Assembly: GCA_001404055.1 (NCBI GenBank)
Contig: CXTY01000039.1
Span: 1-64,000 of the forward strand
DNA: 64,000 nt
Source: Roseibium album
GTDB lineage: Bacteria; Pseudomonadota; Alphaproteobacteria; Rhizobiales; Stappiaceae
Reading direction: 5' to 3'
The notes under the pieces were generated by a model. The model did not search any database. It had not been told where the DNA came from and worked only from the letters and a program-made list of their open reading frames with translations. The position numbers were made by a program, and so were the translations under genes. Position 1 is the first letter of the stretch. Each line of letters begins with the position of its first letter. Of this stretch, positions 52,784 through 64,000 are shown one piece after another.

Positions 52784-53268
52784 GAGGAGGTGGGATCTTC
52801 CTGCTGTACGAAATAACCGAGTTCAAGCAAGGCTGTCGCCCTTTGACAGGCTCCGTTCTAACATACCCGGTCTGGCCAGAGCCTTTCTCCGATAAAGCCG
52901 GAGTGGAGGCCCATTATTGCCAAGCTAAGCCCACCAATAGCTGCGTTGCAACCGTAAAGAGCTAGCGTTTGTACTCAAGCAGCGACGATCACTCTACCAG
53001 GCTGGCATTCAAAGAAACGAGGCCACGCGTGCGCGAATAACGGATCGCGTTCAGAAATATTCCGTACACCGCACGAATGGCCGCAAACCGGACCTGGAGT
53101 TATGCAGATAAGTTGGTCGCATGAATTCAGCACAAGCGACTTGTTCAGACCGCATATTGATCTTGCGATGAGTTGGCCCGCATGATGTCTAGAGGTGCTC
53201 TACATCGCAGAGTTCCTATTGTCTAAGTGATAACCCCGCCAATGCAAAAGCTCGCCCGGAGATCCATC
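52784..53268. other. intergenic gap between cbpA and the M24 gene
   Basis: No gene is supported in these 485 bases. A CTTGAA element lies upstream of cbpA on the minus strand (around 52830), but no matching heat-shock -10 was found. The frame from GTG 53227 and ATG 53242 is an upstream extension of the M24 gene. No repeat or known RNA was recognised. Confidence 0.4.
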
Positions 53269-54426
53269 ATGCTTGAAGAAGCCAAAGCGCGCACTCATAC
53301 GCTCCAGCAGCGGATGAAGGATGAAGGTATTCGCAAGGCCGTCTTCACCGACGAAAGTTCGATTGCCTATCTCGCCGGGTTCTGGGGCTATCTTGGGATC
53401 GAATTCGGTCGTCCAACCCTGTTGGTGGTCGACGCCGAGGCCGCGCCGGTCGTGATCACGCCGCTCATGGAATCTGAAATGGTATCTTCCATGACATGGG
53501 TCGAGGATGTGCGGGTCTGGGAAGATATCGGTCAACGTACCTGGGGGCGAGCACTGGCGCGTGCGCTCGGCGACAAGCCGGTGGACATCTGGGTGGAAAA
53601 AGGAAGCCTTCCCGCCATTGTGCGCAACCATCTGGACGATACCTATCCCGGCGTACAACTCAAGGACATCTCTCCGATCCTGGGCGCCATGCGTACAATC
53701 AAGACACCCTTTGAAATTGACGTGATGAAACAGGCAGGACAGATAGCCGGCGCCATGATGGCTGCTGCCCATGACAGCCTGAAAGAGGGGGCCCGCGAAT
53801 ATGAATCAGCCCTTGCGGTGATAGAGGCCGGGTCCAGGACGGCAGCATCTTTCCTGACAGCCAGGGGCTGGGACCGATTTGTGTCTCCGATGATCCACAA
53901 CCTGCAGATCCTGCAAAGCGGTGCGGATGCGTCCATGGTCCATCGCCGCGCCAGCGTGAAGGCGTATGAAAAATTCGACCCAGTCTATTTCTGCTTTTGC
54001 AACATGGCCCAGTTCAAACAATACAAGCTGGGCTTTGACCGGATGTTTCACATCGGTGATGTGAAGGACGCAGACCGCACCGTGCAAGAAGCAGCAATTG
54101 AGGCTCAGCAGGCTGCCATTGCTGCTATCCGGCCTGGGATTCTGGCAGAAGAGGTTGCTGCCGCCGCCAACGAGATCTACCGCGCGCGGGACTTTGAGAC
54201 GGGTTACCGTACCGGTCGGTCAATCGGCGTTGCCTATCTGGAGGCCCCCGAGCTGAAAACCGGCGACAAAACAGTCCTGAAGCCCGGCATGACCTTTGCC
54301 GTCGACGGCGGCATATCGGTCGACGGGGTGACGGCCGGACGCATCGGAGATTCCATCGTTGTAACGGAAACCGGTGCCGATTACATCACCGACTACCCCC
54401 GTGAAATCCTGCTGAGCAAAGGTTGA
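53269..54426 (+). CDS. M24 (pita-bread) family protein lacking the usual metal ligands
   Basis: A 385-residue protein with an N-terminal creatinase-type domain (about 1-125) and a C-terminal M24 domain. Aligning by eye, the five dinuclear metal ligands of aminopeptidase P are absent. The first two Asp positions read CFC and LGF in FCFCNMAQFKQYKLGFDRMF, the His of GHGIG is Arg in TGRSIG, and the two late Glu positions read AVDGG and RIGDS. Creatinase also works without metal, so a metal-free hydrolase is possible; the substrate is unknown. The start at 53269 has GGAG eight bases upstream. GTG 53227 is an alternative. Confidence 0.75.
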   Translation: MLEEAKARTHTLQQRMKDEGIRKAVFTDESSIAYLAGFWGYLGIEFGRPTLLVVDAEAAPVVITPLMESEMVSSMTWVEDVRVWEDIGQRTWGRALARALGDKPVDIWVEKGSLPAIVRNHLDDTYPGVQLKDISPILGAMRTIKTPFEIDVMKQAGQIAGAMMAAAHDSLKEGAREYESALAVIEAGSRTAASFLTARGWDRFVSPMIHNLQILQSGADASMVHRRASVKAYEKFDPVYFCFCNMAQFKQYKLGFDRMFHIGDVKDADRTVQEAAIEAQQAAIAAIRPGILAEEVAAAANEIYRARDFETGYRTGRSIGVAYLEAPELKTGDKTVLKPGMTFAVDGGISVDGVTAGRIGDSIVVTETGADYITDYPREILLSKG

Positions 54427-54560
54427 ACGATACGACATCAGAGAAAAGTCTCACCTAACATTATCCCGAGAGTAGAGCATAGGCAGCGCATCTAGCTGCC
54501 CATGCATTCTCAATTGATGTCGAAGGTCATGCTTTCAGCTCAAGACAAGACAATCTACCG

Positions 54561-54941
54561 CTATTTCATGGAGCTGATGCCGAACATGTTGCCCTCTGTG
54601 TCCTGACACAGTGTGACCCAGCCAAATTCCCCAATTGAAAACTTTGGCCTGATGATTTGTCCACCTGCGGCTGAAACGCGCGCGTCCTCTACCGCACAGT
54701 CTTCAGCGGAAAAATACACGATGGTGCCGCCAACTCCGGGCGAAGCATGGGCTGACTTTGTTAAAGCACCACCTGCTCCATATGCGCTCATGTCTGTCGG
54801 AAAGCTCATCATCTGGCTTTCACCAGTGGGATCGCCAATCGGCTCAAGTTTGCATCCAAGCACAGTTTCATAAAAGGAAACGGCCCGATCCAGTTCGTCT
54901 ACGTAGATGTCAAACCATCCAACTGCGTTCATTTTGGTCAT
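54561..54941 (-). CDS. VOC-family (glyoxalase/bleomycin-resistance fold) protein
   Basis: A 126-residue VOC protein with two beta-alpha-beta-beta-beta repeats (GWFDIYVDELDRAVSFYETV; TIVYFSAEDCAVEDARVSAAGG) and the ending FGWVTLCQDTEGNMFGIS. The usual first His is Asp/Tyr here, so metal binding is uncertain. GGAG lies six bases before the chosen ATG. It follows an AraC-type regulator on the same strand and is its probable target. Function unknown. Confidence 0.82.
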   Translation of the reverse strand: MTKMNAVGWFDIYVDELDRAVSFYETVLGCKLEPIGDPTGESQMMSFPTDMSAYGAGGALTKSAHASPGVGGTIVYFSAEDCAVEDARVSAAGGQIIRPKFSIGEFGWVTLCQDTEGNMFGISSMK

Positions 54942-55010
54942 ATTCAACTCCGGTTTGTTGTCGATTAGGCCAAACAACTATCAAGCCGCAGTTGGTGTGT
55001 ATTGTAGATA

Positions 55011-55751
55011 TCAGACATCGAACTTTCGGGAATATTTCGCCGGCGTATAGCCCGTTGCCTTGCGAAACGAGTGGATGAAATGAGACTGGTCTGCGTATGA
55101 CAACGACGGCTCGCCACTCAAGGATTGTTGCAGCCGCAGTACCTTGAGAAAATCGTGCGGCGCAAACCCCGTGGTTTTCTTCAGAACCCGCTGGAGTTGG
55201 CGTGGCGACATCTCTGATACCGACGCCATGTCAGCGACAGAATGGATCTCATCAAGGTGCCGGAATATCTTTTCGGTGACCGGGTTCGCGATGACCAGCT
55301 TGCGCTCAACCAGACCCTCCACAAATCGCGAAAGGATATCCTGCTTGGCAGCAAAATCCTGTCCGGCAAGGCTTTCATTGAGTGGCACCAGCGGCAAATT
55401 TCCGGAATACGCGTCTTCCACCATGCCATACGAAACATCTTCGCGGTCTCTTTGCCAGACACCTGGCAGGAAACGGATGTTGATGAAATGAAACACCTTG
55501 CCCAGGTTGAGCTCCTCTGAAGACGCCCGTAGCCTTGTAACGCCTGCAATCCTTGGATCCTGCTGATCCAGAATTATGTAGGTACATGCATCTGGCAAGG
55601 CATGAAACCGATAGTCATCCAACAATGGAGCCTGGGTTTTGAGCTCCAGGAATCGATGGACGATACCCCGCAACTGAACGGGTGGTTCAGCTTCGAAAAA
55701 CTGTACGGCTTCAACGGCTTTGTCCTTGGCGTTGCCCTTTGGATCGTACAT
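55011..55751 (-). CDS. AraC-family transcriptional regulator
   Basis: A 246-residue regulator. The N-terminal two thirds are an unrecognised sensing domain of the type seen in helix-turn-helix regulators with a DUF6597-like start. The C-terminal domain has both helix-turn-helix units: IHSVADMASVSEMSPRQLQRVLKKTTG and YADQSHFIHSFRKATGYTPAKY (each read in parts). It is 69 bases upstream of the VOC gene on the same strand. Confidence 0.85.
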   Translation of the reverse strand: MYDPKGNAKDKAVEAVQFFEAEPPVQLRGIVHRFLELKTQAPLLDDYRFHALPDACTYIILDQQDPRIAGVTRLRASSEELNLGKVFHFINIRFLPGVWQRDREDVSYGMVEDAYSGNLPLVPLNESLAGQDFAAKQDILSRFVEGLVERKLVIANPVTEKIFRHLDEIHSVADMASVSEMSPRQLQRVLKKTTGFAPHDFLKVLRLQQSLSGEPSLSYADQSHFIHSFRKATGYTPAKYSRKFDV

Positions 55752-56003
55752 CGTTACCGAACTCGCTCAATCCGAATTTGTATCGATGAAACATACTAGC
55801 GGCACGATATTGAATGACAAAACTTGGGGCATCCATTTTGTCGTTTCTTCAACTGCAGACTAACGCAAGGCGAACGCATTCGACTTCGGACCGGTCGGAT
55901 TTGCGGTGCGAAGAAAACCGGTTTCTTTGCTCTTCAGTCGTAAATCTACCCTTCTCCCAAGTGATGACTCGACTTTTTAAACGAGCGTCTATTAAATAAC
56001 GCC

Positions 56004-56657
56004 ATGAGCAAGATTGTCGAAATACGAAGGCCACGCGGTAGGGGTAGGCCGGCCAAGAATCAAGCGGAGTTTGACGAAATCCGCGACAGGCTTGTCCGTG
56101 AGGGCGTTGCTTTACTGACCGAAAAGGGATTTGTATCCACCAACCTGGATGAAATCGTCAAAAAGGCGGGTGTGCCAAAAGGTTCGTTTTATACGTATTT
56201 CGACAACAAGGAGGCCTTCGGGCTGGTGTTGATTGATCGGTACGCCCAGTATTTCGCCCGAAAGCTGGACAAATGCTACCTCAACCGCTCGCGCACGCCA
56301 TTGGACCGCATATCCGATTTTATGCTGGATGCCCGGGAGAACCTGGCGCGTTTCGATTTTCGCAGGGGTTGCCTGGTTGGCAATCTCGGTCAGGAAATGG
56401 CGGTGTTACCAGGGTCCTACCGGCAACGGCTGGTCGATGTATTTGGCAGCTGGGAACAAAAGACAGAAACCTGTCTGAAGGCTGCACAGGACGCAGGTGA
56501 AATTGACCCCGACATTGATTGCACAAAGAAGGCCGAAGCGTTCTGGATCGGATGGGAAGGCGCCATTCTTAGAGCCAAACTCAGTCGTGGTGCAGGGCCA
56601 ATCGATCGGTTTTCAGAGGATTTCATGGATGGACTAAAAGCTAAAAAGGCTTCGTAG
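56004..56657 (+). CDS. acuR: TetR-family regulator, AcuR-like
   Basis: A 217-residue TetR regulator. After a basic arm (RRPRGRGRPAKN) the helix-turn-helix is at about 45-70 (LDEIVKKAGVPKGSFYTYFDNK). The ligand domain carries RRGCLVGNLGQEMAVLP and KKAEAFWIGWEGAILRAK, which match the acrylate/DMSP-responsive repressor AcuR of Rhodobacter as I remember it. It stands 222 bases before dddA-acuN-acuK on the same strand, so acrylate-induced control is the likely role. An AT-rich motif TATTAAATA lies just before its ATG and recurs inverted before dddA. Confidence 0.82.
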   Translation: MSKIVEIRRPRGRGRPAKNQAEFDEIRDRLVREGVALLTEKGFVSTNLDEIVKKAGVPKGSFYTYFDNKEAFGLVLIDRYAQYFARKLDKCYLNRSRTPLDRISDFMLDARENLARFDFRRGCLVGNLGQEMAVLPGSYRQRLVDVFGSWEQKTETCLKAAQDAGEIDPDIDCTKKAEAFWIGWEGAILRAKLSRGAGPIDRFSEDFMDGLKAKKAS

Positions 56658-56678
56658 GTCGGGGCAAAATTTTTTGGC

Positions 56679-56687
56679 TATTTAATA
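56679..56687. promoter_or_regulatory. candidate shared operator motif upstream of dddA
   Basis: TATTTAATA, flanked by GGC and AAC, is the reverse complement of TATTAAATA at 55990-55998, which has similar flanks (GAC and GGCG read inverted) just before acuR. Two copies before the two transcription starts of a TetR-controlled cluster suggest a binding site, but AT-rich sequence is common in intergenic DNA. Confidence 0.25.
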
Positions 56688-56879
56688 AACAACTGGTCAA
56701 TAAATCTGATTTTTCGAAATTGCAGAGGTCGTGGGGACAAAGAGAATGAAAAACGTTTCAGTCAGCAGGTCTGCATTCACCGACGCCAATTCAGGACGAA
56801 TGGGCATCGGAGGCACCCTGCCGAGTTTCAGTACTGGCTGCTGCGATGATGCCAAATCCCCAATACTGGGTGCAAACGA

Positions 56880-58550
56880 ATGAATATCGATTATGACTAC
56901 GTCATCGTAGGCGCAGGAACCGCAGGCGCCCTGCTCGCGAACCGGCTCAGCGCAGACCCAAGCAAGCGTGTTTTGCTCTTGGAAGCGGGCGGAAAAGACA
57001 ACTACCACTGGATACACATTCCGGTGGGTTACCTCTATTGCATCGACAATCCACGAACAGACTGGCGCTTCAGAACCGAGAATGAAAAGGGTCTGAACGG
57101 TCGGTCTCTGCTTTACCCGCGTGGTAAGACCCTTGGGGGATGCTCCTCCATCAATGGCATGATCTATATGCGAGGCCAGGCACGGGACTATGACCAGTGG
57201 GCCAATCAGACCGGCGAAAACGAATGGGCCTGGGATGCTGTTCTTGAAGACTTCAAGGCGCATGAAGACAGCTACCGTCTGGACGAAGTAACACGCAGCA
57301 ATGGCGAGCGGGTTGAAAGCACCGACGGCAATCATGCAGCGGGCGGCGAATGGCGCGTAGAAAAGCAACGCCTGAAGTGGGAAATCCTGGATGCCTATGC
57401 ACGAGCGGCAAATGAGGCTGGCATCCCACATACCGATGATTTCAACGGTGGAAACAATACCGGAACAGCCTATTTCGACGTGAACCAGCGCAAGGGATGG
57501 CGATGGAACACATCCAAGGCGTTTCTGCGTTCGGTCAAAGGACGCGATAACCTGGAGATCTGGACAAGGTCGCACGTCAACAGGCTCGGCCTTGAAAAAG
57601 ACAGTGACGGCCAGCTTCGGTGTTCAACGGTCAACCTGCGCTGGAAGGGACAAGATCTTAAGGTGCGGGCGCGAGCAGAGGTCATCCTGTGTGCCGGCGC
57701 CATTGGCAGCCCACACATCTTGCAACTCTCGGGTATCGGCGCAGGCAAGCATTTGTCGCCAAACGGGATTGACGTACAGCACGAACTGCCTGGTGTCGGC
57801 CAAAACCTGCAGGACCACTTGCAAATCAGAACCGTCTATCAGGTCGAAGGTGCAAAGACGCTGAACCAAATGGCCTCCACGCTTAGGGGCAAGGCATCGT
57901 TTGCACTGGAGTATGCGCTGAAGCGCTCGGGTCCAATGAGCATGGCACCGTCACAATTGGGAATATTCACCAAGAGTGATCCATCGCGAGAGCATTCGAA
58001 TATCCAGTTTCACGTTCAGCCGCTTAGCCTGGAGGCTTTCGGGCAACCGTTGCATGATTTCCCAGCGATTACGGCAAGCGTCTGCAATTTGAACCCCACC
58101 AGCAGAGGCTCGGTGCTGCTGAAGTCCCCGCGTGCAGAGGATGCCCCGGCGATTGCGCCGAACTATCTGGACACGGAAGACGACCGGAAAGTTGCGGCCG
58201 ACAGCCTGCGCGTTGTGCGCAACATCGTCGAGCAACCGTCCTTGGCACAATACAAACCCAAAGAGATCAAACCGGGGCCGCAATATCAATCGGATGCAGA
58301 GTTGGCAACGGCTGCCGGGGATATCGGTTCGACGATTTTTCATCCCGTCGGCACCACAAAGATGGGCCGCGCAGATGATCCTGGCGCGGTCGTGGACAGC
58401 AAACTGCGTGTTCGCGGGATTCGGGGTCTTCGCGTTGTTGATGCAGGCGTGATGCCAACGATCACGAGCGGCAATACAAACAGTCCGACATTGATGATTG
58501 CGGAAAAGGCGGCCCGCTGGATTGCGGCTGACGCCCATAGGAGAACCTGA
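56880..58550 (+). CDS. dddA: GMC-family flavin alcohol dehydrogenase, probable DddA
   Basis: A 556-residue choline-dehydrogenase-like flavoprotein. The FAD loop is VIVGAGTAGALLANRLS (residues 8-24). The substrate-side signature PRGKTLGGCSSINGMIYMRG is at about 80-100. The GMC catalytic pair is H488 (FHPVGTTKMG) and N534 (GNTNSPT). By its place with AcuR, AcuN and AcuK it most resembles DddA, which oxidises 3-hydroxypropionate to malonate semialdehyde in Halomonas. Choline dehydrogenase (BetA) is the main alternative, but no betaine genes are nearby. Stop and next start overlap (TGATG). Confidence 0.68.
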   Translation: MNIDYDYVIVGAGTAGALLANRLSADPSKRVLLLEAGGKDNYHWIHIPVGYLYCIDNPRTDWRFRTENEKGLNGRSLLYPRGKTLGGCSSINGMIYMRGQARDYDQWANQTGENEWAWDAVLEDFKAHEDSYRLDEVTRSNGERVESTDGNHAAGGEWRVEKQRLKWEILDAYARAANEAGIPHTDDFNGGNNTGTAYFDVNQRKGWRWNTSKAFLRSVKGRDNLEIWTRSHVNRLGLEKDSDGQLRCSTVNLRWKGQDLKVRARAEVILCAGAIGSPHILQLSGIGAGKHLSPNGIDVQHELPGVGQNLQDHLQIRTVYQVEGAKTLNQMASTLRGKASFALEYALKRSGPMSMAPSQLGIFTKSDPSREHSNIQFHVQPLSLEAFGQPLHDFPAITASVCNLNPTSRGSVLLKSPRAEDAPAIAPNYLDTEDDRKVAADSLRVVRNIVEQPSLAQYKPKEIKPGPQYQSDAELATAAGDIGSTIFHPVGTTKMGRADDPGAVVDSKLRVRGIRGLRVVDAGVMPTITSGNTNSPTLMIAEKAARWIAADAHRRT

Positions 58551-59821
58551 TGGCAAGTTCCAACGACATCCCACTGAAAAAAGGTCCGCTGAACGGGATA
58601 ACCGTACTGGACTTTTCGCGTGTGCTGGCAGGCCCATATTGCACGATGGTTCTGGCTGATCTCGGAGCGCGCGTGATCAAGGTCGAGAAACTGGGCACCG
58701 GCGACGACACGCGTGCTTTCGGCCCTTTCGTTGAAGAGGAATCGGCCTATTTCACCTGTTTCAACAGGCGCAAGGAAAGCATCGTTCTGGACATCAAGTC
58801 ACCGCGTGATCGCGAACTGCTGGAACGACTGCTGGATGCCTCTGATGTGCTGGTGGAGAACTTCCGCCCCGGCGTGATGGATCGGCTGGGATATGGCCCT
58901 GACCGGCTGGCCAAAACACATCCGCATCTGATCTACGCGTCCATTTCAGGCTTTGGCCACTCTGGCCCCTATGGCGACTTGCCGGGGTACGACATGGTTG
59001 TTCAGGCGATGGGCGGGATCATGAGCCTGACCGGCTGGCCAGACGGCGAACCGGCGCGCGTCGGCACCAGCTTTGGCGATTTGGGCGCCGCCCTTTTTGC
59101 TGCTGTGGGTATTGTTTCTTCGCTTTACAGCCGCACCAAGGACGCACAGGGCACACGCGTCGATATTGGGATGCTCGACTGTCAGGCCGCTCTTATGGAA
59201 ACCGCCCTCGCCCGATATGACGTTGAAGGTAAAGTTCCGGGCCGCACGGGTGACTGCCACCCCTCGCTGGCCCCGTTTGAGAGCTTTCGCGCCAAGGACG
59301 AAAAAATCGTCATTGCGGCGGGCAATGACACGCTGTTCATGCTCATGGCAGATGCACTGGGCGCGCCGGAATTGGCATTGGATCCACGGTTCATGAGCAA
59401 TGATCTGCGTTGTCAGAATCGTCCTGAAATGGTGGTTGAAATGGAAAAAATCCTGTCTCAGCAACCGGTTCAGCACTGGATCGACGCACTCAATGACGTG
59501 GGTGTGCCCTGCGCGCCAATCAATACCATCGACAAGTTGCTGGATCACCCACAGCTGCTGGCGCGCGACATGATCGTCCAGGTGCAGGGTCAAAAAGGTA
59601 ATCCGTTCAAAACGGCAGGCAATCCGATCAAGCTGACCGGCCATGAAGAAATCGACATCAATACCCCGATGAATGCACCGGGTCTTGGGCAACATCGCGA
59701 ACAGTTGTTGGCGGAGCTCATGGCAAGCCGAGGTTCCTATGACCTGCCTGCAGATACTGACAGCGAAACCGAAGATGAAAGCGGCAGCGCCGCGCCCCGG
59801 CGTGAACCCAGCGCCGCTTGA
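58550..59821 (+). CDS. acuN: class III (CaiB/BaiF) CoA-transferase, probable AcuN
   Basis: A 423-residue CoA-transferase of the formyl-CoA transferase family. The catalytic aspartate is D177 in GTSFGDLGAALFA. The N-terminal LDFSRVLAGPYCTMVLADLGA and DIKSPRDRELLERLL motifs are typical. AcuN activates acrylate, or 3-hydroxypropionate, as a CoA thioester in acrylate catabolism. The tail after about 390 is acidic and low-complexity (TDSETEDESGSAAPRREP), probably disordered. It is translationally coupled to the gene before it. Confidence 0.72.
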   Translation: MASSNDIPLKKGPLNGITVLDFSRVLAGPYCTMVLADLGARVIKVEKLGTGDDTRAFGPFVEEESAYFTCFNRRKESIVLDIKSPRDRELLERLLDASDVLVENFRPGVMDRLGYGPDRLAKTHPHLIYASISGFGHSGPYGDLPGYDMVVQAMGGIMSLTGWPDGEPARVGTSFGDLGAALFAAVGIVSSLYSRTKDAQGTRVDIGMLDCQAALMETALARYDVEGKVPGRTGDCHPSLAPFESFRAKDEKIVIAAGNDTLFMLMADALGAPELALDPRFMSNDLRCQNRPEMVVEMEKILSQQPVQHWIDALNDVGVPCAPINTIDKLLDHPQLLARDMIVQVQGQKGNPFKTAGNPIKLTGHEEIDINTPMNAPGLGQHREQLLAELMASRGSYDLPADTDSETEDESGSAAPRREPSAA

Positions 59822-59833
59822 CTGGAGAATGAC

Positions 59834-60676
59834 ATGAACAAGATTGCGAACAAGCCGGGAAAAACAAAAATTTCGGAAGTAATTTCGTCACCTACAAAAC
59901 CTGCCAAACCTGAAATGATCATTGTCGAACGGCGTGAGCGGGTTGGCCTGATCACATTGAACCGGCCAAAGCAGCTGAACGCCCTGAACCGTCAACTCGC
60001 CGAGGAAACGCTGGCGACTTTAAAAACGTTTGATGCTGATCCGGATATTGGAGCGATTGTCATCATCGGCAGTCCGCGCGCATTCGCAGCCGGAGCCGAC
60101 ATTGAAGAAATGGCAGAAAAGTCATTTGCAGACTTCTACATGGACGATTTTCTGTCGCCCTGGGATGCCGTGAAGACAATATCCAAACCCATCATTGCTG
60201 CAGTCAGTGGCTTTGCTCTGGGTGGGGGATGCGAACTTGCGCTCCTGTGCGACTTCATCATCGCTTCGGACGACGCACAATTCGGTCAACCCGAGATCAA
60301 ACTCGGCATTCTCCCCGGCATAGGTGGCTCGCAGCGTCTGACCCGGTCTGTCGGCAAGGCCCTCGCAATGGACCTGGTTCTCACCGGCCGAAATATTGGT
60401 GCCCAGGAAGCCAAAGAGGTCGGCTTGGTCGCGCGCGTGGTGGCAAAAGAGGAGCTTCTGCAAACGGCGCTGGAAGCTGCCCACACGATTGCCGGATACA
60501 ACGCACCGGCAGTAAAAATGGCCAAATGTGCAGTCAACGCAGCTCTCGAAACACCGCTGTCAGAGGGACTGAAGCAAGAGCGTCTGTACTTTCAGGCGGC
60601 GTTCGCAACCGAAGGACAAAAAGAAGGCATGAATGCCTTTGTGCACAAGCGGGCCCCGGTTTTTCGAAATCGATAA
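59834..60676 (+). CDS. acuK: enoyl-CoA hydratase, probable AcuK
   Basis: A 280-residue crotonase-fold hydratase. Both catalytic glutamates are present, E134 (GGGCELAL) and E154 (GQPEIKLG), 20 residues apart as in rat enoyl-CoA hydratase, and the oxyanion loop SPRAFAAGADI is intact. In acrylate catabolism AcuK hydrates acryloyl-CoA to 3-hydroxypropionyl-CoA. The first 28 residues are a Lys/Pro-rich extension, but GGAGA six to nine bases before the ATG supports this start. It follows acuN by 12 bases. Confidence 0.72.
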   Translation: MNKIANKPGKTKISEVISSPTKPAKPEMIIVERRERVGLITLNRPKQLNALNRQLAEETLATLKTFDADPDIGAIVIIGSPRAFAAGADIEEMAEKSFADFYMDDFLSPWDAVKTISKPIIAAVSGFALGGGCELALLCDFIIASDDAQFGQPEIKLGILPGIGGSQRLTRSVGKALAMDLVLTGRNIGAQEAKEVGLVARVVAKEELLQTALEAAHTIAGYNAPAVKMAKCAVNAALETPLSEGLKQERLYFQAAFATEGQKEGMNAFVHKRAPVFRNR

Positions 60677-60874
60677 AGTTTCGATTCGCGCAACATAACG
60701 CGTGAAACATAGAGCGAGAGCCAAATTGAGCCCGAAAACAACCGGGCCAAAAATACTGTTTTAATGACAGGCTAGTCGCGCACCTTGAACTGCCGCCAAA
60801 ACTGCCAGTTGGTAAGTCGTTACTGATGTGTTTTTGCAAGACACATTGATTGGCCCGCACTCAATGGCATTGCG

Positions 60875-61279
60875 CTAACCCGACTTCAGCTCTGTCTCGA
60901 ATCCTTGCCGGTCGTGTTTGATTTTTTCAAGAACACCACGCAGCGCGAAGGGCCTGTCGTCGTACAGCCCGCTCCAAATAATGATTTCAATCAATATAGG
61001 GGCAAGGTCGCGCCCTTTTTGCGTCATCTCATAGATGAACGCCCTGCGGTTATCAGGATCGCGTGTCTTGGTCAGTATGCCCTCTGCCTCGAGGTGTTTC
61101 AGGCGCGCAACAAGAATGTTCGTCGCGATACCCTCATCTGCAGCAAGGAATTCGCTGTAGGTGCGTTTTCCCCTCAGCAAGATTTCTCGGATGATCAGCA
61201 GGCTCCACCGATCGCCGAATGTGTCGAGCCCAAATGCGACGGGGCACCCGCTCTCACGTTTTTTGATTTCTGCTTTCAT
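60875..61279 (-). CDS. HxlR-family transcriptional regulator
   Basis: A 134-residue winged-helix regulator with the HxlR start CPVAFGLDTFGDRWSLLIIREIL (the first Cys is often redox-active), then RTYSEFLAADEGIATNILVARLKHLEAEGIL (in parts) and the wing DNRRAFIYEMT. It is divergent from the cupin gene at 61390 across a repeat-rich 110-base region, its likely target. Confidence 0.88.
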   Translation of the reverse strand: MKAEIKKRESGCPVAFGLDTFGDRWSLLIIREILLRGKRTYSEFLAADEGIATNILVARLKHLEAEGILTKTRDPDNRRAFIYEMTQKGRDLAPILIEIIIWSGLYDDRPFALRGVLEKIKHDRQGFETELKSG

Positions 61280-61301
61280 TTCGCCATCCTAAAAAAAAGA
61301 C

Positions 61302-61357
61302 TTGCAATATGCAATACGTATCTTTATGTAGTTTACATATTGCAAAACGCAATACGT
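61302..61357. promoter_or_regulatory. repeat-rich operator region between hxlR-type gene and cupin gene
   Basis: TTGCAATATG (61302-61311) and its exact inverse CATATTGCAA (61336-61345) are 24 bases apart. GCAATACGT occurs twice in direct orientation (61311-61319 and 61349-61357), each just after a GCAA-type half-site. The spacing is about 38 bases between the direct copies. It is a good candidate for the HxlR binding sites controlling both directions. Confidence 0.55.
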
Positions 61358-61389
61358 GATTTAACTCTTGAAGCCAACGGGATACGACC

Positions 61390-62109
61390 ATGAAAAATCA
61401 ACTGAAGACACTTAAGACCATCGCTCTCGCAACCTCAATCGTCGTCGCCGGCGGATTGATTGGCACCGCCAATGCGAACCCGTCGGTTGATCAGGTCAAA
61501 TTGCTGACAGCAAATTTTGCGCCCCGACAAGTTGTGCAGGTTGAAGCCGGAGACTTCCACTTCAAGCCGGGTCAGGTAGCCCCCATTCACACGCATGACG
61601 CTCCTGCAATCGGCTATGTCGCCAAGGGAATGATCATCTATCAGGTTGAAGGTGAAAAGCCTCAGATCCTGCGTGAGGGTGACGCCTTTTTTGAACCCAC
61701 AGATGCCCGCATATTGCGCTTTGACAATGCATCCGCGACCGAAGAAGCGATTTTCATCGATTTCAATCTGGAACAGGAAAATGAACCCTTCATCGTTTTC
61801 GAAGAAGCACCCAAGGAACATATCGACCGCAGGACGCTGCCAACGGTCACTCTGAAAGATGAAGTTGTCGATCAGGTCGAAGTTTACAGCAACCGTATTG
61901 CCCCAAGTGCCGATCTGGAATTGACGGGAAAAAGCCCGACGCTTGGCCTGGTTGCGCAAGGTATTGTTGAGGTGCAGTTCGAAGGCGCTGAACCCCTTCG
62001 CGTATCCGCCGGAGGAACCTTTGCGCTCCCGACGGCAGACAGCCGCGTTTCTATTGCCAATGTTTCAGACGAAGTGTCGGCAAAGGTCATCACATTCCAG
62101 TTGAACTGA
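61390..62109 (+). CDS. exported bicupin protein
   Basis: A 239-residue secreted protein. A signal peptide covers residues 1-29 (ALATSIVVAGGLIGTANA). Two cupin-like repeats follow. The first has PIHTHDAPAIGYVAKG (HxH present, the usual Glu replaced by Ile) and EGDAFFEPTDA. The second (LGLVAQGIVEVQFEG ... SAGGTFALP) lacks the histidines, so at most one metal site remains. It heads a plus-strand run with the VOC and hydrolase genes. Function unknown. Confidence 0.75.
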   Translation: MKNQLKTLKTIALATSIVVAGGLIGTANANPSVDQVKLLTANFAPRQVVQVEAGDFHFKPGQVAPIHTHDAPAIGYVAKGMIIYQVEGEKPQILREGDAFFEPTDARILRFDNASATEEAIFIDFNLEQENEPFIVFEEAPKEHIDRRTLPTVTLKDEVVDQVEVYSNRIAPSADLELTGKSPTLGLVAQGIVEVQFEGAEPLRVSAGGTFALPTADSRVSIANVSDEVSAKVITFQLN

Positions 62110-62173
62110 GACAGCTGGCGGGCGCTCAAATGCCCGCCGCGCTCTCCCTGATTGATTTGAGAGGAACGGAGCA

Positions 62174-62626
62174 ATGACAAGCTCACATCAGCAGCAGATA
62201 CACCCCACGCGGGTCATGTACACAATGCTTCGGGTTAGCGATCTGGACCGGTCACTCGCGTTTTACACCCAGGTTCTGGGCATGACAGAGCAATACCGCG
62301 AAACCTTCACCGAGGGACGCTTCACCCTTGTTTTCCTCGGATATGGCGACCGCTCCAATGGGTCCTTGATCGAGCTAACGTACAACTGGGATCAGAACAA
62401 CTACACCCACGGAACCGGGTATGGCCACATAGCACTAGCGGTCGAAGACATTAATGCTGTCAGCACACGATTGGCAGAGCACGGTGTGAACATTGTGAGA
62501 CAGCCAGGCCCCATGACATTTGCGCCGGATGAGACGGGACACCGCGAAGTCATCGCGTTCATCGAAGACCCGGATGGATACCGCATAGAACTGATCGAAA
62601 CGCCTGCTAAACCCCTGCGTAATTAG
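62174..62626 (+). CDS. glyoxalase I-like protein lacking one metal ligand
   Basis: A 150-residue VOC protein closely resembling lactoylglutathione lyase GloA, which turns methylglyoxal-glutathione adduct into S-lactoylglutathione. LIELTYNW (Glu ligand), YGHIALAV (His ligand) and YRIELIE (Glu ligand) are present. The first ligand, His in the E. coli LLHTMLRV stretch, is Tyr here (VMYTMLRV). Whether it still works is unclear. It lies between a cupin and a hydrolase gene under the probable HxlR region. Confidence 0.82.
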   Translation: MTSSHQQQIHPTRVMYTMLRVSDLDRSLAFYTQVLGMTEQYRETFTEGRFTLVFLGYGDRSNGSLIELTYNWDQNNYTHGTGYGHIALAVEDINAVSTRLAEHGVNIVRQPGPMTFAPDETGHREVIAFIEDPDGYRIELIETPAKPLRN

Positions 62627-62736
62627 TCGAACCAACCACCTCCAACAACAAGCCGAGTTCAACCCTGTGCTGCGCAATCGCGCTCGCTGTCGGGGAGGCT
62701 CGTTCTTCAGACATGTAAATTCAAGAAGGAAACATC

Positions 62737-63447
62737 ATGACACATTACATCCTCGTCCACGGTGCATGGGAAGGTCCATGGAGCTGGGACTATGTTGCAC
62801 CCGCATTGGAAAGACAGGACCACAGCGTCACAAGTGTTGATTTGCACGGCAGAACCGAGAACGACGACAACATCCGGAACACAACCATGGAAAGCTATGT
62901 TCAGGTGGTTCTCGATGAGATCAGCAGGCACGATCAGAAAGTTGTTCTTGTAGGTCACAGCATGGCCGGGGCAGTCATTTCGTTAGTGGCAGAACAAGTG
63001 CCGGACAGGATTGAGCGACTTGTCTATGTTGCGGCATTCCTGCTTAAGGACGGCGACAGCGTGCTTGGCGCGATGCAACGCGATCCTGATGGTGAATTTC
63101 TCCCGGAACTGGTCTTTTCAGAAGATCAAAGCTCGGCAACCGCGACCGCGCAGACCTGGCGCAGCAAGGCGTTCCACGACGTCAGGGAAAATCGCATTCT
63201 TGAAGCATTACCGCTGGTTGACGTTCCCCAGGCGACAGAGCCGTTTATGGCAAAAGTGCAGGTTAGCCCTGAAAAATTTGGGAGTGTTCCCAAGGTCTAC
63301 ATACGCACCGCGGTAGACAAGATGGTCTCACCGAAACTACAAGACGAAATGCTCAAGACATGGCCGGTTGAGCAAGAACATGTTCTGCAATCCGGGCATT
63401 TTCCAACGCTGTCCGTGCCGGAAACACTCGCTGAACTGCTGATCTAA
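62737..63447 (+). CDS. methylesterase-like alpha/beta hydrolase
   Basis: A 236-residue alpha/beta hydrolase of the plant methylesterase/hydroxynitrile lyase-like group: HYILVHGAWEGPWSW at the start, the elbow VLVGHSMAGAVI (Ser about 73), an Asp in RTAVDKMV and QSGHFPTLSVPE with the catalytic His. The triad is complete. Substrate unknown. An AAGGA site lies upstream of the ATG and a hairpin terminator follows. Confidence 0.82.
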   Translation: MTHYILVHGAWEGPWSWDYVAPALERQDHSVTSVDLHGRTENDDNIRNTTMESYVQVVLDEISRHDQKVVLVGHSMAGAVISLVAEQVPDRIERLVYVAAFLLKDGDSVLGAMQRDPDGEFLPELVFSEDQSSATATAQTWRSKAFHDVRENRILEALPLVDVPQATEPFMAKVQVSPEKFGSVPKVYIRTAVDKMVSPKLQDEMLKTWPVEQEHVLQSGHFPTLSVPETLAELLI

Positions 63448-63463
63448 CCAGCACCAAACTCAC

Positions 63464-63499
63464 GGGGTCAATCAGCCTCCAAGATTGACCCCGGGGTTT
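63464..63499 (+). terminator. hairpin terminator after the HxlR-side gene run
   Basis: GGGGTCAATC (63464-63473) and GATTGACCCC (63483-63492) form a 10-bp perfect stem with a 9-base loop, followed by GGGGTTT. The T-run is short, so efficiency is uncertain. Confidence 0.6.
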
Positions 63500-63741
63500 C
63501 CGAATTTTCGCTCAAATGAATGGTGCAATTGCCTATAACTTTTTGGACGTTGCGAAACGAACTCCGAGGAAGGGAATATTGGACTTTTCGTACACCGCGA
63601 AGCACACCAATAACTGCAATAGGTCGAACCTAACCCTCATCCGACATACGCAATTTGGACTTGGTCACTATTCCGCGGAGTTGCCAAATTTGATGACCCC
63701 AAGATACTATCAAAACTGACCTTTTCTGAGAAAGTGGCAGC

Positions 63742-64000
63742 ATGAAAAAGCTACTTCTAATTGCATTCTGTTTCGCTACCTTGTTCGCTCTCCAGTCAAG
63801 TACGCTGGCAAGCGACGGCAAGAAAATTGTTCTTGTCATCGAAAGTTACCACAAGGAATTTTACTGGGACGCTGGCTACAGAAGAGGGATCACCAACGTC
63901 ATTGGTGATCAGGCAATCGTCAAATTCTTTGAAATGGACACAAAGCGCTTACCAAAGGCAACATACCCGGACCGTGCCGCCCTGGCGATTTCCGAAATTG
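63742..64000 (+). CDS. periplasmic ABC-type substrate-binding protein (partial, cut by window end)
   Basis: Only the first 86 residues are visible. A signal peptide (MKKLLLIAFCFATLFALQSS, cleaved after TLA) is followed by KIVLVIESYHKEFYWDAGYRR and FFEMDTKRLPKATYPD. The YH...W...G and MDTKR pattern is that of the ABC_sub_bind (PF04392/COG2984) family, which feeds ABC importers or sits in front of membrane sensor proteins. The frame is open to the last base, so the rest of the system lies outside the window. Confidence 0.75.
   Translation, partial: MKKLLLIAFCFATLFALQSSTLASDGKKIVLVIESYHKEFYWDAGYRRGITNVIGDQAIVKFFEMDTKRLPKATYPDRAALAISEI

Follow-up and report, generated by a model that had tools for sequence, protein, structure and literature searches.

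We analysed a 64,000-nucleotide stretch of the Roseibium album genome (5.99 Mb in 41 contigs), comprising bases 1-64000 of contig C39 (CXTY01000039.1) and called the window below, in which the four genes acuR, dddA, acuN and acuK form a compact cassette. Acrylate is a toxic cleavage product of a major marine sulphur compound, and the cassette is very probably a self-contained unit for its assimilation under the control of AcuR, with acrylate coming from an unlinked DddL-type lyase of the same organism or from outside. It is an acrylate system of a known kind and a well-supported further example of it, to which the two-site regulator layout and the clear transfer unit are small additions. Gene identities, clades, the resemblance of two sites to known operators, the limits of a conserved block and the presence of partner genes in trans are established at the level of sequence.

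The acuR-dddA-acuN-acuK locus

An earlier note on this DNA, made from the sequence alone, described four same-strand genes at 56004-60676; its coordinates are exact and the four plus-strand open reading frames (ORFs) are present. The overlapping or close spacing that it reported applies to the three enzyme genes, in which the GMC and CaiB-type genes share one base and a 12-nt gap precedes the ECH gene, but not to acuR, which is separated from the GMC gene by 222 nt. In gene order, the products carry the Pfam domains TetR_N/TetR_C_13, GMC_oxred_N/C, CoA_transf_3 and ECH_1. The note's assignments as AcuR, DddA, AcuN and AcuK stand, the first by a curated model and the three enzymes by trees.

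Table 1 Features of the cassette
Feature	Position	Strand	Basis or remarks
acuR, TetR-family regulator of acrylate use	56004-56657	+	217 aa; NF051457, pocket residues
dddA, FAD/GMC 3-hydroxypropionate dehydrogenase (predicted)	56880-58550	+	556 aa; GMC_oxred_N/C, DddA clade
acuN, family III CoA-transferase on acrylate (predicted)	58550-59821	+	423 aa; CoA_transf_3, AcuN clade
acuK, acryloyl-CoA hydratase (predicted)	59834-60676	+	280 aa; ECH_1, AcuK clade
AcuR operator-like site 1	55973-55995	.	overlaps presumed leaderless acuR promoter; holds GTCTATTA at 55987-55994
AcuR operator-like site 2	56682-56704	.	between acuR and dddA; presumably controls dddA-acuN-acuK
Conserved DNA block (first operator and four genes), apparent transfer unit	55971-60756	+	blastn against L065

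The three enzymes fall into acrylate-pathway clades

Relatives of the cassette were collected by scanning contigs with a two-row AcuN alignment (the window and Aestuarium), and the best 80 loci of at least 576 relatives, a selection that is no census, are referred to by L numbers. General NCBIfam models name the three enzymes choline dehydrogenase (522.3 bits, cut-off 605), CoA:oxalate coenzyme A (CoA)-transferase (388.6, cut-off 522) and enoyl-CoA hydratase (391.3, narrowly under 396). These names are what would speak for ordinary choline, carnitine or fatty-acid enzymes lying together by chance, a view that we find barely credible: all three scores are below cut-off, the genome has its own BetA elsewhere, and the idea is contradicted by the tree clades and by the adjacency of acuN and acuK in 32 of 32 relatives. 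Against the betA model, the window DddA scores 420 bits and the genome's own BetA 876, with a cut-off of 732.

In the GMC tree, which carries a long-branch warning among the own-genome rows, the window DddA lies in a 14-row clade (support 100/100) that also takes in the GMC protein of every dddD locus in the set, four in number (L028, L068, L069 and L096). The grouping with choline dehydrogenases that the earlier note had asked about did not occur; the own BetA and five other own GMC paralogues are far from this clade. Two further own paralogues (56-57% identical) make up a neighbouring six-row group with four acuN-linked GMC proteins. On the basis of the tree, the DddA label can be trusted within the window's clade but applies only loosely to loci beyond it.

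AcuN belongs to a clade of 35 rows set against 29 other CaiB proteins, with a Shimodaira-Hasegawa-like approximate likelihood ratio test (SH-aLRT) support of 100 obtained with a quick method that uses no mixture model. It is 80-82% identical to Cobetia and Larsenimonas proteins encoded in dddC-dddA-dddD clusters, and carries GDLGA with Asp177, which we take to be the catalytic residue. The AcuK clade has 34 rows (SH-aLRT 97); many own paralogues sit on very long branches in this tree, and the AcuK-clade split alone was used. Twelve own hydratases fall outside it, the nearest, 58% identical, lying just outside, and two over-long own hydratases were left out of the tree. AcuK has the motifs GGGCEL and FGQPEI, whose glutamates are presumably catalytic. 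Neither AcuN nor AcuK grouped with this genome's other CoA-transferases or hydratases.

AcuR retains the effector pocket

The first gene exceeds the cut-off of the AcuR equivalog model NF051457 (281.9 bits vs 247; NCBIfam), and its product matches PDB entry 3bru (194.6 bits), which we take to be the Rhodobacter sphaeroides protein. We mapped its pocket residues onto the numbering of Halomonas D47 AcuR by spacing (26 and 74, offset +1), and found 11 of 13 identical to those reported for D47. The equivalents of Tyr82, Lys86, Arg120 and Trp183 (all four acrylate-critical residues) and all five residues critical for dimethylsulfoniopropionate (DMSP) are kept, and the two differences replace Met by Leu and His by Phe. 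According to the excerpted report on D47 AcuR, alanine changes at pocket residues weakened acrylate or DMSP binding (PMC13104084). The pocket varies among relatives, with Lys86 changed in L066, L093 and L145, Tyr82 in L080 and L093, and Phe179 in L094.

Two AcuR operator-like sites flank acuR

The published R. sphaeroides operator, in the excerpt of its description, is TAATAGAC-n6-GTCTATTA over a leaderless promoter (PMC3017554). The right half, GTCTATTA, has a single plus-strand copy in the window, nine bases 5' of the acuR ATG, and its reverse complement does not occur in the 64 kb. An inverted-repeat search gave no operator-like repeat 5' of acuR or in the acuR-dddA gap; the sites are visible by comparison only. 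We built a 23-bp matrix from sites 5' of acuR in nine other loci, none of them the window, L065 or L067, and judged scores against 1000 first-order resamples of each stretch (130 bp for the upstream stretch). The site in the acuR-dddA gap (56682) scores 12.3, ranks first in the window and is equalled in 2 of 1000 resamples, and the site upstream of acuR (55973) scores 8.3, ranks third and is equalled in 29. The second-ranking match (61108, score 8.5) lies inside an HxlR gene and is presumably due to chance.

Counterparts of the gap site in L065, L066, L067 and L094 are stronger than that of the window, each equalled in 0 of 1000 resamples, and that of L093 is weak (109 of 1000). The acuR upstream sites of L065 and L093 are equalled in 1 and 13 of 1000, respectively. 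A derived upstream form in which the spacer is shorter, AAACG...GTYTAT, is common to L065, L067 and the window. From the positions of the two sites, we infer that one AcuR site serves acuR and the other dddA-acuN-acuK.

Elsewhere in the genome, the window operator pattern was found at 18 places (10 + 8) with up to three mismatches, compared with 22 + 29 for a reversed control pattern, which is no enrichment; the only match with zero mismatches is at the cassette. The palindrome AGACN6GTCT with one mismatch occurs 26 times (17.3 expected; 3 of 100 shuffles reach 26), never at the cassette. AcuR sites near the own acuI, dddL and MMSDH (methylmalonate-semialdehyde dehydrogenase) genes were sought and rejected: the best scores in stretches of 15-16 kb (7.9, 12.8 and 6.9) are below the top of 40 resamples each (15.6, 15.5 and 14.0).

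Likely partner genes are present but unlinked

Searches for DMSP_lyase cupins, DddP and DddD found no lyase in the window (DddY, DddX, Alma1 and further lyases lay outside these searches), and a genome-wide profile search placed no MMSDH over cut-off there. The earlier note had reported the lack of a lyase and of the malonate-semialdehyde dehydrogenase DddC, which is thus correct for the window and the families searched but not for the organism. The genome search that it proposed yielded a DddL-type cupin and an MMSDH, both unlinked, no DddD, and no DddP over cut-off. The cassette is not a linked DMSP ddd/acu cluster: the DMSP_lyase cupin lies on contig C34, no lyase of the searched families being linked to the acu genes, and the one MMSDH over cut-off lies on contig C14.

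The MMSDH on C14 (636.7 bits, cut-off 448.5) is the sole one over cut-off in the genome; among 14 control genomes, 13 have a match and 5 exceed the cut-off. The cupin on C34 scores 125 bits against the DMSP_lyase family (cut-off 27), for which 2 of 14 control genomes have a match and none exceeds the cut-off. Over 77% of its length, the cupin shares 48.8% identity with a protein of Rhodobacteraceae SC52 that is annotated as DddL and encoded in a TetR-oxidoreductase-DddL row. In that row, the TetR protein exceeds the cut-off of the AcuR model (255.5 bits), and the oxidoreductase shares 54% identity with the own AcuI. HSH...ESY and HR.T are kept across three aligned proteins, the cupin and two relatives. 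No NCBIfam model matched the cupin, and its PDB matches are distant, with DMSP lyases on top (best 41.7 bits). Contig C18 carries dmdA (637 bits, cut-off 410), an acyl-CoA synthetase gene and acuI, whose product scores 449.8 bits against 297.25 for the YhdH/AcuI subfamily and 433.7 against 440, just under, for the AcuI equivalog.

The surroundings of these genes were also noted. The cupin gene (L030:7340-8167, with an ORF start probably too far upstream) adjoins an FAD oxidoreductase gene and a radical S-adenosylmethionine enzyme gene, and no acuR or acuI was seen beside it. The dmdA-acyl-CoA synthetase-acuI row (L029:7762-11528; about 70.8-74.5 kb of C18) runs on the minus strand behind a DUF1326 gene and places DMSP demethylation genes in the same genome. 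Two lyase candidates were discarded. The M24 peptidase upstream of the cassette (53227-54426) scores 20 bits against a DddP cut-off of 600, and genome-wide the DddP model has three matches, none over cut-off; this creatinase/prolidase-family enzyme weakly resembles ectoine hydrolase models. For DddD, the genome has three CoA_transf_3 matches only, in ORFs of 408, 427 and 426 aa, compared with about 840 aa for proteins of DddD size. A cupin gene at 61390-62109 of the window, adjoining the HxlR regulator gene, has a weak (R)-mandelonitrile lyase match (21.8 bits, cut-off 140).

From the absences in the window, the earlier note had suggested scavenging. The absences are no evidence for it, because the partner genes sit unlinked in the same genome, along with dmdA-acyl-CoA synthetase-acuI. 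The strict form of this idea, in which the same enzymes would live on acrylate or 3-hydroxypropionate (3HP) released by others and the cell would make no acrylate, agrees with the window's lack of a lyase from the families searched, with the lack of dddD in the fetched flanks of 29 of 32 related loci and with a branched-chain/urea-type transporter row behind acuK in three relatives. It also agrees with the genomes of those 32 relatives, in which only the DMSP_lyase family was searched: 10 have a match, 7 over cut-off (two of them weak, 39.8 and 27.5 bits), and 25 have none over cut-off. It is opposed by the own DMSP_lyase cupin with its score over cut-off, its likeness to DddL and its conserved motifs, by dmdA, and by the lack of a transporter among the cassette neighbours scanned with Pfam. 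We consider strict scavenging improbable. A lyase away from the cassette recurs, as in the closest relative, L065 (136.2 bits, over cut-off), yet 25 of the 32 genomes, whose completeness is not given, have no protein of this family over cut-off. Judged by its gene content, the R. album genome plausibly makes its own acrylate and processes malonate semialdehyde, and it may use external acrylate or 3HP as well.

The MMSDH bears on another reading, a branched analogue of the pathway running from methacrylate through 3-hydroxyisobutyrate to methylmalonate semialdehyde, which MMSDH would turn into propionyl-CoA. The chemistry of the methacrylate route resembles that of the acrylate route, and it is methylmalonate semialdehyde that gives the MMSDH model its name. 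AcuR identity, its pocket and the grouping of the enzymes with dddD-cluster proteins favour three-carbon substrates, however, and make the branched route very unlikely.

Gene neighbourhoods and acrylate sources in relatives

AcuN identity declines from 93 to 68% across 32 loci and then falls to 55% at the clade edge. In all 32, acuK adjoins acuN downstream on the same strand, so that the order is not due to chance. The flanks of these loci, counted in fetched sequence only, with identity cut-offs of our choosing and several loci ending at contig ends, hold DddA in 20, MMSDH (DddC-like) in 17, AcuR in 13, LysR (of the type beside Ensifer dddD) in 7, AcuI in 5, DddD in 3, AmiE in 1 and DddL in 0. 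With dddD at 3 and a dddC-like gene at 17 of the 32 loci, unlinked layouts are therefore common; AcuR and DddA without a nearby MMSDH, as in the window, occur at seven. A class-wide search of 385 genomes, with at most four AcuN candidates scored in each, gave a best non-own match of 55% and no member of the AcuN clade, which suggests that the cassette is uncommon within that draw.

Cobetia amphilecti and Larsenimonas have the row LysR, dddC, dddA, acuN, acuK and then dddD. The gene content given for Halomonas D47 and HTNK1 in an excerpted report matches this row (PMC13104084), and dddD, dddA, dddC and acuK are listed for Cobetia amphilecti in another (PMC9327192). One Limimaricola locus (L096:514-11451) combines LysR, dddA, dddD, acuR, acuI, acuN and acuK. 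Together with L068 and L069, it places acuN-acuK beside dddD outside Halomonas HTNK1, contrary to a 2012 statement in the excerpt of PMC3338564. In five further loci (L079, L088, L076, L074 and L075), acuK is followed by another crotonase-fold ORF of 325-342 aa, whose product is 29-31% identical to AcuK; it precedes dddA in three cases and possibly encodes a 3HP-CoA hydrolase.

On plasmid CP021117.1 of Aestuarium zhoushanense (L016:2142-11060), genes annotated as a urea ATP-binding cassette (ABC) transporter, the gene of an aliphatic amidase that scores 645.4 bits (cut-off 427) and two ORFs are followed by dddA-acuN-acuK-acuI, a row whose gene content could possibly serve acrylamide catabolism. 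In a Variovorax relative, acuR-dddA-acuN-acuK is accompanied by acuI and by another AcuR-like gene, whose product scores 204.9 bits and so stays below cut-off; about 8 kb upstream, on the opposite strand, are an AAA gene and the gene of an AmiE homologue that shares 70% identity with the amidase of Aestuarium. Both rows lend some weight to the notion that the substrate here is acrylate derived from amides (acrylamide) rather than from DMSP. AmiE is nonetheless in the flanks of just 1 of 32 loci, and a Pfam scan found no amidase among 20 window proteins, the rest of the own genome not having been searched for one; we hold an amide source to be unlikely. A literature search for links of acuN with acrylamide or an amidase gave no acuN among the matches listed, and we make no claim to be the first to report these points.

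L066, L067 and L093 apparently have two consecutive branched-chain/urea-type ABC transporter sets downstream of acuK. Six L067 proteins and one L066 protein matched models of this transporter type below cut-off, a 418-aa L067 protein matched none, and the call for L093 was made by size, order and BLAST of two ATPases.

The cassette as an apparent transfer unit

A blastn comparison of window positions 53001-64000 with L065 (Ca. Halocynthiibacter alkanivorans) gave one match, at 55971-60756, with 80.1% identity over 4807 columns and unmatched flanks. This 4.8-kb block, of which L065 has a rhodobacterial copy, has sharp limits, starting at the first operator and ending shortly after acuK. Its proteins are 83% (AcuR), 90% (DddA), 93% (AcuN) and 90% (AcuK) identical between the two genomes, compared with 57% for ArgJ and 63 and 59% for two pieces of SecA. 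Because the block is far more alike than these yardsticks and sharply limited, sequence comparison points to acquisition of the four genes and the first operator as a unit. In the gammaproteobacterial metagenome-assembled genome (MAG) L093, the corresponding identities are 64, 77, 82 and 81%, with 57 and 46% for SecA. SecA of the R. album genome is 65% identical to that of a Rhodospirillales MAG. The GC content of the cassette (55.3%) nearly equals that of the window (54.1%), and composition therefore argues neither for nor against transfer.

Comparison with known systems

The Halomonas HTNK1/D47 ddd/acu cluster (dddT-dddD, dddC-dddA-acuN-acuK, acuZ, acuR, acuI) shares with the window the order dddA-acuN-acuK, presumably the reactions, and an AcuR-type regulator alike in its pocket. 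The window cassette differs in having no dddD, dddT, dddC, acuZ or acuI, and in placing acuR before the enzyme genes with operator-like sites 5' of acuR and of dddA, whereas D47 AcuR is reported to act on acuI only. With the acuR-acuI-dddL layout it shares acuR in first place, an operator-like site at the acuR start (presumed leaderless) and the half-site; it differs by dddA-acuN-acuK in place of acuI-dddL and by the second site behind acuR. L065 and L067 (Octadecabacter sp. MAG) have the gene order of the window, proteins 83-93% and 71-88% identical and an operator-like site in the gap. The flanks of L065 are unrelated to those of the window, and L067 adds the double ABC-transporter row downstream. 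Aestuarium has the same dddA-acuN-acuK core but differs by the linked amidase gene and acuI, and no acuR was seen in the 17 kb fetched.

Proposed mechanism and its weighing

Taken as a whole, these features suggest the following scheme for the cassette. Without inducer, AcuR would occupy two operators, the first overlapping its own promoter and the second in the acuR-dddA gap, and hold both down; binding of acrylate, and possibly DMSP, would relieve repression. AcuN would transfer CoA to acrylate and AcuK hydrate acryloyl-CoA, jointly giving 3HP, which DddA would oxidize to malonate semialdehyde for conversion to acetyl-CoA by the unlinked MMSDH/DddC-type enzyme. Acrylate would be supplied by the own unlinked DddL-type lyase or externally, the unlinked AcuI would offer a second outlet for it, and the four-gene block with its first operator would have been gained in one step. 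The substrates, the direction of regulation and the transfer are the parts of this scheme that we infer.

Several observations weigh against this account. The tree anchors for AcuN, AcuK and DddA are proxies chosen by gene content, not biochemically verified sequences, and 9 of the 20 GMC proteins linked to acuN in relatives are not part of the 14-row DddA clade, with two own paralogues among those. Site 1 has an exact right half but a degenerate left half (AAAC) and a shorter spacer, besides its frequency in the resamples, and the upstream site of L067 is at chance level (220 of 1000). The 12.8 match in the 16-kb stretch around the own dddL lies 4 kb from that gene and is on a par with the window's best, while staying within the range of the resamples. 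MMSDH could serve valine breakdown only. The case for transfer draws on two yardstick proteins and shows no shift in composition. As for regulation, the excerpted reports describe repression by R. sphaeroides AcuR (PMC3017554) but activation of acuI by D47 AcuR (PMC13104084), and an excerpted account has a Burkholderia ambifaria AcuR-like protein unresponsive to acrylate. Relief of repression by acrylate is thus uncertain, and control may instead be by activation, as in D47.

Implications

The locus indicates that the origin of acrylate is poorly predicted by gene linkage. With its sharp limits and predicted two-site switch, the compact unit might be used as a sensor for acrylate or as a module for its degradation. 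Tentatively, and with slightly more doubt than confidence, we propose that acuR-dddA-acuN-acuK and its two AcuR sites form a mobile module that crosses orders and even classes of Pseudomonadota and is joined to varied acrylate sources: in Halomonadaceae DddD, in the present genome a DddL encoded elsewhere, in Aestuarium and Variovorax an aliphatic amidase together with an amide transporter, and in other relatives a double ABC importer. If this is true, acrylate catabolism would be independent of the source of acrylate and no appendage of DMSP cleavage.

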